From positions 1-40,357 of the forward strand of contig VMFW01000008.1 of assembly GCA_007376265.1 (NCBI GenBank): a stretch of 40,357 nt of DNA. The letters run 5' to 3'. Made by a program: the position numbers and the translations under genes. A model generated the notes under the pieces. The model was not told where the DNA came from. It made no database searches and saw only the letters and a list, made by a program, of their open reading frames with translations. Positions 18,166 to 40,357 of this stretch are shown here, piece after piece. The stretch's first letter is position 1. Each line of letters opens with the position of its first letter. The stretch is from Parcubacteria group bacterium Gr01-1014_20 (GTDB lineage: Bacteria > Patescibacteriota > Minisyncoccia > UBA6257 > 2-01-FULL-56-20).

Positions 18166-18468
18166 ATGGGAGACAACGGCCACACCACAAAGGAACCTGC
18201 TCACAAGGTAATCTTGAGCAGGTTAACTGAATTCACCCACACTGGACACACCATACGTACGATCATTGGCACAACCGAAAGGGAAGCCATGATCATCGAG
18301 TTCAGAACTCTATGCGGGATCATGGGGGAAATGGATATTCCGCAGAAAGAGAAAGATAACGTCAGAAAGAATCTGGAACAACTGCAAGGAGACATCGAGT
18401 CGTTCAAAGAAGTAGTTGACGCAAACCTGGAAAGCGTTACATCTGCCATAAGAAGCCTGAACGATTAG
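18166..18468 (+). CDS. Hypothetical protein
   Basis: SD AAGGAG, promoter and terminator flank a single ORF. Confidence 0.65.
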   Translation: MGDNGHTTKEPAHKVILSRLTEFTHTGHTIRTIIGTTEREAMIIEFRTLCGIMGEMDIPQKEKDNVRKNLEQLQGDIESFKEVVDANLESVTSAIRSLND

Positions 18469-18487: not shown

Positions 18488-18512
18488 AAACCCCGATCCA
18501 CTCGGGGTTTTT
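18488..18512 (+). terminator. Terminator
   Basis: AACCCCGATCCACTCGGGGTTTTTC. Confidence 0.75.
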
Positions 18513-18579
18513 CTTTCCCCCAACCCACCCCAAATAAATCGGCGACTAAAAACGGCAGGGAAAATTCTGTCAAAATTAC

Positions 18580-18689
18580 TTGAGGAAGCTCTCGGAGGCG
18601 CGATGAGCTTGGTGTCGCCTAAGGCGACTCATCGCGCCGAGAGGCAGTGGGCAGCTTGCCGCCGGAGCAAGCGCGACGCCGGTTCTCAA
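18580..18689. repeat. Structured palindromic element, copy of a family shared with 40107-40238
   Basis: GCTCTCGGAGGCGC..AGCTTGGT..GCGCCGAGAGGCAGTGGGCA-GCTTG-CCGCCGGAG-CAAGC..CCGGTT. Confidence 0.8.
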
Positions 18690-18708
18690 AAATCATAAAA
18701 TTACCGAG

Positions 18709-21084
18709 CTACTCCCTAAGCCGCCGGTAAATATCCGCCTCAATCACTTGCCGATCCTCCCCATACTTCGCCCTCGTGTAATCTTTCAAGCTCTGTGCCA
18801 CCTCCGGGTTACCACTCTCAACCGGTAAAGTTTTTATGTTAAAGGGCTTCGAAGTCTCACCATTGATCAAAATCTTCACGTAAGCGTTAAAGTTATCGAT
18901 GCTAATTAAATCATTCAAATCAAATACAGGATCGAATTGCTTGACCAAAAAATCGGCGTCCTGCACACCTACCCTGAAAACCACCTGACTTCCAACGTTT
19001 CCAAAAACCGCGTCTCGAATTTTTTCCGTGAGCTGGGCAATGAATTGATGAGCCATCGTCAAACTCAATTTATACTTTCGAGCTTCAGACAAAATAGTGG
19101 AAATAGAATCGGTGGTGAAATTCTGAAACTCGTCTATGTACAAATTAAAATCGCGCCGCTTAGAAGCGTCAGCTATGTCCACTCGGGAAAGGGCCGCCAT
19201 CAAAATCTTGCCCGTAATCACCATCCCCAAAAGTCCGGCATTAATGTCCCCGATCCTTCCTTTCGACAAATTGACCAGTAAAATCTTCCCCTCGTCCATT
19301 ACTTGCCTGAAGTTAAAAGCCGACTTAGCCTGTCCAATAATCGGCCGCATGTAATCATTCGAAATGAAGTTGTTAAACTTTGAAGTGATGTAGGGGGTCA
19401 TGTTCGCAAGCGATGCCTCACCCCCAGCCTTAACAGCTTCCTTCTCCCAAAAATCAATCACCACCGGATTGTGAATTCGCGCCAATTTCTTCTTCCGATA
19501 CTCCGCATCGGTGAAAACTCTCGGCACCTCTATGAGGGTCGCTGGCTCATTTGGCATGTCTTCCATCAGAAGCAAAAGCGCGTTTCGCATGTACTGCTCA
19601 AACATCGGCCCCATCGTCTCCGCCGTAAAAAGCTTGTTAAATATCCCCTGCATCTCGTTCACGATAAAAGTTTTTTCTTCGGGGCGATCAAAATTGTAAT
19701 CGAGCATATTGAGACCGAGCGGACGGTCCAAGTCTGACGGATCAAAATAGATCACATCTTCAATTCTATGGCGGGGAATGTGCTTTAAGGCATCTTCAAC
19801 CAGATCGCCATGAGGATCGATCATGGCCACCCCATTACCCTTCTTAATATCATCAATCACCATATTGGTCATAAGGGTCGATTTACCGGTTCCCGTCTGC
19901 CCAACGATATACACATGCCTCCGCCTGTCTTCTTCAGTCACATAAACTGGCCCCGATTGACCCCGAAAATTACTTAAGCCCAAAGGCACTCCGGAGGTTG
20001 GAAGATTTGATGGCGGCGGAGCTTCTTTAGACTTGAGCCACTTAATTCTAGGAGTCTCGGTCGTTGCCGCGGGCAAATGGTAAAAACTAGCCAATTCTTC
20101 GCTGTTTAAAACCATCGCCTGGGAACTATCGAAATTCCTGAAGCTAAAGTCATAGACAACTTTTTTGATATTTCTTGGCTTAACCACCTTAAATTCATTT
20201 CTCTTGGGCGCGCCAAATTGATTAAATCCAGCCAAAAGGCCGTCTAAAATATCATTGGCCTGAAATGGCGTTCCAGCCGAAGCCAAAACCCGAGCGTTCA
20301 CCAAAAAAAGCGGTTTCGCCACTTTTCCTTCAAGCGTCTTGATAGTTTCCTCATCTAGAATTTTATTCAGTTTAGCTTCATTTTTGTCTTTTTCTGCTTT
20401 CTCTGGGTTGAAAGCTCCAGCAATATCAGAAAATTTAATCGGAAATCCCTTACCTAAAACATCCTCGGTCGGTGTCCCCTTTTTGAGTTGCTGAATCGAT
20501 TTCAAAATCTGTTTCTTATAGTCGCTCGCTGCTGGCTGAATAATTATTTGAAACGCGGCTCCCTCCCCCACTTCGTTAATTTTTGAAAAACCTCCAGCTA
20601 TCGGCGAAAAAGAATCGTTGCCAATCTCCGGGTAAGTTCGAATGGGTAAAACATAAGTCTCTTTCTGCATCAAGTAAGCACCGGCGGTTGCTCCCTGCGC
20701 GTTAAAAATGTTGTAATCCCCATGGGCCGGTGCCACGCTTGCGCCATTCCAGATACCCTGAATCTGTTTCGCCGCCACCTCGCTAAACACTCTTGGGATC
20801 GCAATGTAAAAATGTATCTCCTCTCCAATGTGGGGCACCGCCACTTCGAAGCAAAAAGGTTTCTTAAGCGCCGCAAGATTGCCGAGGAGTTGTTCAAATT
20901 TATTTATCTCCAACTTAAAATCTTTATCGGCAACCTGTTTATCCTGGCGCTCCCGAGGAATTTTAACTAGGAAAACGGACAACTTCAGGGATTCAAAAAA
21001 ACTTACTCTTTTCCAGTGTCGAATCAAAAAGTAAAAACCCACTGCAATTAAAGCTCCGGCAACGAAAACTAGTATCAAGCTCAT
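18709..21084 (-). CDS. VirD4/TraD-like type IV secretion/conjugation ATPase
   Basis: VYIVGQTGTGKSTLMTNMVIDDIKKGNGVAMIDPHGDLVEDAL (Walker A), FNLYIDEFQNFTTDSISTILSEARKYKLSLTMAHQFIAQL (Walker B). Confidence 0.85.
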   Translation of the reverse strand: MSLILVFVAGALIAVGFYFLIRHWKRVSFFESLKLSVFLVKIPRERQDKQVADKDFKLEINKFEQLLGNLAALKKPFCFEVAVPHIGEEIHFYIAIPRVFSEVAAKQIQGIWNGASVAPAHGDYNIFNAQGATAGAYLMQKETYVLPIRTYPEIGNDSFSPIAGGFSKINEVGEGAAFQIIIQPAASDYKKQILKSIQQLKKGTPTEDVLGKGFPIKFSDIAGAFNPEKAEKDKNEAKLNKILDEETIKTLEGKVAKPLFLVNARVLASAGTPFQANDILDGLLAGFNQFGAPKRNEFKVVKPRNIKKVVYDFSFRNFDSSQAMVLNSEELASFYHLPAATTETPRIKWLKSKEAPPPSNLPTSGVPLGLSNFRGQSGPVYVTEEDRRRHVYIVGQTGTGKSTLMTNMVIDDIKKGNGVAMIDPHGDLVEDALKHIPRHRIEDVIYFDPSDLDRPLGLNMLDYNFDRPEEKTFIVNEMQGIFNKLFTAETMGPMFEQYMRNALLLLMEDMPNEPATLIEVPRVFTDAEYRKKKLARIHNPVVIDFWEKEAVKAGGEASLANMTPYITSKFNNFISNDYMRPIIGQAKSAFNFRQVMDEGKILLVNLSKGRIGDINAGLLGMVITGKILMAALSRVDIADASKRRDFNLYIDEFQNFTTDSISTILSEARKYKLSLTMAHQFIAQLTEKIRDAVFGNVGSQVVFRVGVQDADFLVKQFDPVFDLNDLISIDNFNAYVKILINGETSKPFNIKTLPVESGNPEVAQSLKDYTRAKYGEDRQVIEADIYRRLRE

Positions 21085-40106: not shown

Positions 40107-40238
40107 TTGTTATTTATCGAAAGCTCTCGGAGGCGCTAAAAGCTTGGTCCCTGAGTTTTGGCGAAGGGTTCTAGCGCCGAGAGACAGCGGACATTTTTCC
40201 GCAGGAGAAAAATGAACCGCGGTTTCGATAAATAACAA
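40107..40238. repeat. Structured palindromic element, copy of a family shared with 18580-18689
   Basis: 16-bp perfect outer stem TTGTTATTTATCGAAA/TTTCGATAAATAACAA; inner GCTCTCGGAGGCGC..AGCTTGGT..GCGCCGAGAGACAGCGGACA-TTTTT-CCGCAGGAG-AAAAA. Confidence 0.85.
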
Positions 40239-40245
40239 GCTCGCA

Positions 40246-40357
40246 TCACTTGATCTCTTCCCACGAAATCTGGGTGTAGTTGTCGCTGGTGAGCGGAAAA
40301 CTAGGCGGCGGTCCATATAGTAAGTTGGCATCATAGATATAATTTCTTGCCTGATAA
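40246..40357 (-). CDS. C-terminal end of an unidentified protein (5' part off the window)
   Basis: Minus reading frame ...YQARNYIYDANLLYGPPPSFPLTSDNYTQISWEEIK*. Confidence 0.6.
   Translation of the reverse strand, partial: YQARNYIYDANLLYGPPPSFPLTSDNYTQISWEEIK

Follow-up and report, generated by a model that had tools for sequence, protein, structure and literature searches.

An undescribed folded element, dispersed and probably mobile, in ultra-small bacteria and a few other phyla

Many ultra-small bacteria, together with members of a few other phyla, carry an undescribed folded element. Here we analysed a window of 40,357 nucleotides (positions 1–40,357 of contig VMFW01000008.1 from Parcubacteria group bacterium Gr01-1014_20; ‘the window’ is this whole stretch) and found two segments that belong to the family, the typical length of which is 150–160 bases where the outer stem is intact. 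Both probably represent a non-autonomous mobile element, about 150 bases long, of which one strand (the + strand) folds. The family appears to be mobile, occurs in frame within protein genes in either orientation and favours sites after stop codons, features that go beyond an earlier, sequence-only reading of the window.

Copy 1 occupies positions 18580–18689 of the + strand (core, 18585–18684; covariance-model match of 92 bits, E = 2.2e-20). Its outer stem, P1, is short (TTGAG, 18580–18584, with CTCAA, 18685–18689). Within it, again on the + strand, lie the invariant helix P2 (left arm CTCTCG, 18589–18594, paired with CGAGAG, 18638–18643), a conserved GAG bulge (18595–18597) that is invariant in the 24 seed copies, the variable stem P3 (left arm GCGCGATGA, 18598–18606, paired with 18629–18637), a GCTTGGT bulge (18607–18613) conserved in the seed alignment, and the P4 hairpin GTCGCC-TAA-GGCGAC (18614–18628), in which stem and loop are both variable. 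A GCA linker, the P5/P6 arm and a GGTT end follow (18644–18684), with P6 (18654–18658 with 18668–18672) closing the conserved loop C-CGCCGGA-G (18659–18667). Copy 2 (40107–40238, + strand; core, 40120–40224; 85.1 bits, E = 1.2e-18) has a full outer stem P1, formed by TTGTTATTTATCGAAA (40107–40122) and TTTCGATAAATAACAA (40223–40238). Its GCTTGGT bulge is at 40142–40148, P4 at 40149–40152 and 40165–40168, P5 at 40187–40190 and 40217–40220 (arm, 40187–40220) and P6 at 40193–40198 and 40208–40213 with the loop CGCAGGA (40200–40206), all on the + strand. Both sequences that the sequence-only reading had quoted are present in the window as given, the conserved loops and bulges (GAG, GCTTGGT, CGCNGGA and GAGRCAG) are real, and its statement that the stems differ yet stay complementary is true of both copies and was confirmed by covariation among 82 copies. 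The segments that it delimited are real, but too short where the outer stem is intact, as in the 40.1-kb copy, which spans about 130 bases.

Both window copies adjoin stop codons. Beside copy 1, a terminal tag CGAGC (18705–18709; annotated as 18705–18711 without a strand) runs into CTA at 18709–18711, the TAG stop codon of a minus-strand gene (18709–21084). Copy 2 abuts a TGA stop codon on the minus strand (40246–40248), the translated open frame of which continues past the end of the window. The repeat that had been reported on both sides of copy 1 is indeed there (AAAATTAC at 18572–18579 on the + strand, with a direct repeat at 18697–18704), but it is specific to copy 1 and no feature of the family; this flanking direct repeat (GTAATTTT/AAAATTAC) is possibly due to chance or to a duplication. 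A target-site duplication was rejected as an explanation of GTAATTTT, which is present at a single copy only. Just upstream of copy 1, a + strand gene (18166–18468) is followed by a hairpin that resembles an ordinary terminator and has a T run (CCCCGATCCACTCGGGGTTTTTCTTT, 18494–18520). At the site orthologous to copy 1 in genome G001, a different structured element stands in its place.

A seed alignment of 24 copies (A4) gave a covariance model (R1) of 102 positions and 24 pairs that comprises stems P2, P3, P4 and P6; P5 was excluded because MAFFT misaligned P5 and P6. Further copies in the same genome (G000; 913 kb in 20 contigs, 99% complete) were found by DNA search, and the model identified 14 copies at E < 0.01 and 17 at E < 1 in these 0.91 Mb. 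The model search of its own and related genomes, which the sequence-only reading had proposed, yielded many homologues: of the 150 genomes searched in the order, 79 gave matches. Copy number in related genomes is patchy, from 0 to at least 26. A two-motif pattern matched 22 of 151 relatives, a few of them as lone chance matches without the remaining element, and a reversed-pattern control matched none of the 151. In a sample of the phylum, the model found matches in 16 of 287 genomes, the window’s own genome included; beyond the order, the family is sparser in Patescibacteria. When 84,980 species genomes were scanned with the motif pattern, 84 stretches came up; 80 of these were searched with the model, which confirmed 82 matches. 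The confirmed patescibacterial hosts are Liptonbacteria, Harrisonbacteria, Wolfebacteria, Colwellbacteria, Azambacteria, Peregrinibacteria and others. Carriers confirmed by the model also include Omnitrophota (MHFU01, PLLJ01, JAKLIQ01 and JACQQN01) and Deltaproteobacteria RIFCSPHIGHO2_02_FULL_40_11, which has two copies; the model gave no confirmation for motif hits in Nocardioides, Anaerolinea, Rubripirellula, Gemmatimonadales and UBA6601. No Rickettsia record was matched by the motif pattern in the species-genome scan. By eye, copies lie next to the apparent end of a 23S rRNA gene in three genomes (L107, G000:C4:14457; L038/L199 in G023; and L039 in G019). Rfam returned nothing at the gathering threshold (two matches at E < 1 were far below it), which agrees with the earlier view that this is not a known RNA class, and no repeat of this kind from CPR bacteria was found in searches of the openly accessible journal literature.

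The + strand folds in a constant order: the outer stem P1, P2 with the GAG bulge, P3, the GCTTGGT bulge, P4, a linker and the P5/P6 arm, which is capped by the CGCNGGA loop. P1, P3 and P4 are variable and P2 (CTCTCG/CGAGAG) is constant. P1 has a mean of about 28 nucleotides per arm, differs in almost every copy and often includes a tandem G·A step; a score above 12 was reached by 80% of 147 copies and by no control (0%), with the stem ends set by anchored extension (RNAfold-based ends were over-extended). Among 82 copies from public genomes, 95.1% of the core pair cells form standard pairs (63.2 ± 0.7% when shuffled and 34–48% when slid), with a covariation score of 0.789 (0.182 ± 0.009 when shuffled and 0.09–0.14 when slid). 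Fitting the alignment to the model favours the structure somewhat, but both controls are still far lower. In P3, all 7 of the counted pairs show two-sided changes in the same analysis. Covariation this strong supports selection on structure in RNA or single-stranded DNA, as had been proposed. The accompanying phrase ‘not simple copying’ is right about the structural constraint; copying does occur, however, and the constraint acts afterwards. The outcomes that the sequence-only reading had named against itself—an absence of homologues, an Rfam match or a lack of covariation—all failed to occur.

Departures from Watson–Crick pairing indicate which strand folds. Core cells comprise 142 G·T against 37 A·C and 126 purine–purine against 19 pyrimidine–pyrimidine, and the outer stem has 131 G·T against 41 A·C. 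As G·T and purine–purine (G·A) mismatches are concentrated on the + strand, it is the + strand that folds. Between copies that are less than 5% diverged, 19 changes are one-sided (13 of them to G·T) and 2 are two-sided, and the share of two-sided stem changes rises with growing divergence until it is dominant. This pattern is one of stepwise compensation under selection, not of palindrome correction in one step. The loops and bulges are conserved across phyla.

Genome G006 has three copies with near-identical cores and unrelated outer stems. At one of its sites (site B), the copy directly follows the termination codon of an EF-P-like gene, and a separate terminator-like inverted repeat lies beyond the element. 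The orthologous site in G033 is empty: the whole insert is absent, both P1 arms included. This is one clear case, at about 82% flank identity; ValS and TGT homologues that have no insert give additional support for empty sites. In G035, another stem–loop insert occupies the same spot as in G006. Tandem and nested near-identical copies occur in G074. The TGT and ValS loops suggest that the outer-stem arms may be host-derived flank; against this, both arms are within the inserted DNA at site B of G006.

Copies lie in frame within ComF-like, ValS, MnmA, NifS-like aminotransferase, TGT and LpxB genes, as well as in genes for a membrane protein (glycosyltransferase-like by eye) and a phosphomannomutase-like protein. 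Pfam names ValS, MnmA, the class-V aminotransferase, TGT and LpxB, several with the domain matched on both sides of the insert. It gave no match at the threshold used for ComF and the membrane protein, so these two names rest on our reading of the sequences. Overall, 29 of 137 copies are enclosed by open frames 120 codons or longer; a number of these frames are short and may be spurious. Because in-gene copies were found through open frames, copies that break genes would be missed. The inserts recur in variable loops of host proteins such as TGT, MnmA, ValS and LpxB, away from conserved cores. A single TGT loop has received sense and antisense inserts in different genera, and TGT homologues without an insert run continuously through that loop. 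In orthologous TGT inserts of one genus, P1 co-varies and conservation exceeds that of the flanking coding DNA. At one and the same ValS loop, G011 and G015 carry the studied family, and G017 and G019 a different one.

This second family (GGCTAYGNGGCCGAGCGGGCATGGT, a variable hairpin and GCGAG) occupies similar sites, including the same ValS loop. It was seen near locus position 1400 of L305 (G001:C5) and in ValS of G017 (L352) and G019 (L351), with a weak match at G000:C2:4855–4954 (L116). In Patescibacteria and Omnitrophota, the studied element sits within the variable hairpin of the second family, between the flanks CTCGCTCG and CACCATGCCCGCTCGG (L147, L207, L141, L170, L150, L158, L163, L165 and L187).

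Outside the open frames, 38 copies adjoin an opposite-strand stop codon on their right and 4 on their left (p = 6e-8). TAG makes up 21 of the 38 right-side stops, against a background of 22.8% (p = 1.5e-5), and GTAG is found at 8 of the 38, against 5%; TAG or GTAG is missing from many copies. Many copies have a CGAG(C)-like tag or a flanking TAG at their ends, and CGTC did not stand out by eye as a frequent end. The + strand is the C-rich strand in 57 of 72 copies. With gene-strand effects removed, the replication-linked GC skew agrees with orientation in 28 of 39 copies, and where skew and gene direction conflict, skew wins by 8:1. Orientation matches skew in 9 of 9 and 6 of 6 copies on contigs of G074, and switches with skew in G107, with exceptions. 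On G074:C3, GC skew is negative though most genes are on the + strand, and element orientation tracks the skew. The orientation bias is partial (72–79%), and the stop-codon and skew statistics come from partly overlapping sets of copies and ignore phylogeny.

We propose that a folded single strand would be copied and inserted at or behind the replication fork, and that an enzyme supplied in trans would recognise the conserved loops GAG, GCTTGGT and CGCNGGA. Copies would then persist at the least harmful sites, namely those behind a stop codon and those at which a tolerant surface loop takes up the insert in frame. Such a mode would resemble that of the Rickettsia protein-coding palindromes (RPEs) and REP elements. 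Our first guess at the enzyme, a tentative one, is a single-strand-specific HUH-type nuclease. The Y1 domain (PF01797) is missing from some copy-rich genomes, and reverse transcriptase (PF00078, RVT_1) was not found in G003, G095, G169 and G171, each of which has 11–17 copies. A requirement for reverse transcriptase, with the RNA mobilised by a retroelement, was rejected because RVT_1 is missing from these copy-rich genomes. Reverse transcriptase genes do lie about 0.6 kb or less from a copy in two cases (G050:C42:11051–11974 and G133:C11:47284–48558), possibly by chance. The strand signals disagree: folding preferences favour the + strand, whereas the TAG located 5′ of the reverse complement and the placement on the G-rich strand, together with lagging-strand logic, would suit an active reverse complement, as in an IS608-like scheme. 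It counts against the mobile reading that transposition itself was not observed and that the clear empty site is a single one, and the conservation of old TGT copies beyond that of their flanks is not obviously explained by pure parasitism.

Several of these observations would also suit a structured regulatory or non-coding RNA (terminator-like, a 3′-UTR stabiliser or a riboswitch) selected at gene ends: the strong covariation, G·T intermediates confined largely to one strand, the many copies placed directly after stop codons in one orientation, and orthologous TGT copies that are better conserved than their flanks. We nevertheless find such an RNA distinctly unlikely. Copies in coding regions lie in both orientations, even within one TGT loop, so either strand occurs in a transcript, and the folded strand is mostly antisense to neighbouring genes. 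The distribution is patchy (0 to 26 copies among related genomes) with no consistent gene association, and site B of G006 has a putative terminator of its own, an inverted repeat, past the element. It is also unlikely that the element is a true REP/RAYT or IS200/IS605 member, that is, a miniature element that the host’s own Y1 tyrosine transposase would mobilise. Its hairpin DNA, GTAG/TAG adjacency, replication-strand bias and lack of a clear target-site duplication are what such a member might show, and Y1 transposases are present in its own and related genomes. By hand count, however, Y1 occurs in 12 of 34 element-bearing and 6 of 20 element-free genomes and is lacking in G074 and G107, two genomes of about 99% completeness that carry many copies; 12 sampled Y1 genes have no element within 1.5 kb, and the expected strand assignment is inconsistent. 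The link to IS200/IS605 or REP/RAYT suggested from the sequence alone is thus one of resemblance only, as the occurrence of Y1 transposase does not follow that of the element.

Correction by template switching is known to act on palindromes, and the stems could in principle be kept matched by mutation alone, through such correction at the fork and without structural selection. Long perfect outer stems that are wholly different among copies with near-identical cores speak for this process; the excess of one-sided over two-sided changes at low divergence, the favouring of G·T over A·C and the conservation of loops and bulges across phyla make it an improbable account of the family, although palindrome correction may still be the origin of the outer stem. 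That the folded inserts inside essential genes are self-splicing or bypassed by the ribosome, and so removed at the RNA level, we consider very improbable: the frame is open through the element, in various frames and both orientations (only open-frame copies were findable), and insertions recur in variable loops, not in conserved cores.

The mobile reading also has a more far-reaching form, which is possible but on balance doubtful: a distinct mobile class in which one folded strand, served by a trans-acting enzyme, would gain a new perfect outer stem of 20–30 bp at each insertion, target stop codons, take its placement from the direction of replication and shape housekeeping proteins, both in Patescibacteria and in other phyla. 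The question of how RPEs and other protein-coding palindromes move dates from 2000. In one patescibacterial order, over half of the genomes sampled carry an element with an RPE-like lifestyle; its near-identical copies, its signals of orientation and target, and its many natural insertions in the well-studied TGT, MnmA, ValS and LpxB provide a large comparative dataset for the enzyme and mechanism. In ultra-small genomes, the element repeatedly gives essential proteins new loops. The covariance model built here has no counterpart in Rfam.

The structured ends of IS200/IS605 elements such as IS608 are recognised as single-stranded DNA, and these elements insert beside a short motif with a replication bias. 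The family shares the single-stranded type of structure, short-motif adjacency and replication bias, but has about 150 bases without a transposase or any gene of its own, and its folded strand is apparently the other one. Like bacterial MITEs (ERIC, BOX and Correia; reviewed in PMC10969869), it is short, dispersed, foldable and non-coding; MITE inverted repeats are common to the copies, whereas here P1 is usually unique to a copy and the internal loops are conserved. REPs are hairpins with a TAG-containing motif at one end and are mostly extragenic (PMC3733652). GTAG REPs and REPINs resemble the element as non-autonomous hairpin DNA repeats that are sometimes intragenic, and a TAG motif at one end is likewise seen in part of its copies; but the element is several times longer and more complex, the TAG beside it frequently serves the adjacent gene as stop codon, and no association or linkage with RAYT/Y1 genes was found here. 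RPEs are palindromic in-frame insertions of about 150 bp (Ogata et al. 2000, 2002, as summarised in PMC10969869) that are reported to end in CGTC (PMC3733652). Both families are about 150 bp in length, palindromic, dispersed and patchy. Both are also found in frame in unrelated housekeeping genes (here ComF, ValS, MnmA, NifS-like, TGT and LpxB) and between genes. The family described here differs in hosts and sequence, in its more elaborate fold, which is built round a three-way junction and in which internal bulges and a loop are conserved, in its mostly copy-specific outer stem, in its adjacency to TAG and other stop codons and in its occurrence in several phyla. Its kinship to RPEs, as these have been described, and to REPs would be a likeness of lifestyle and form.
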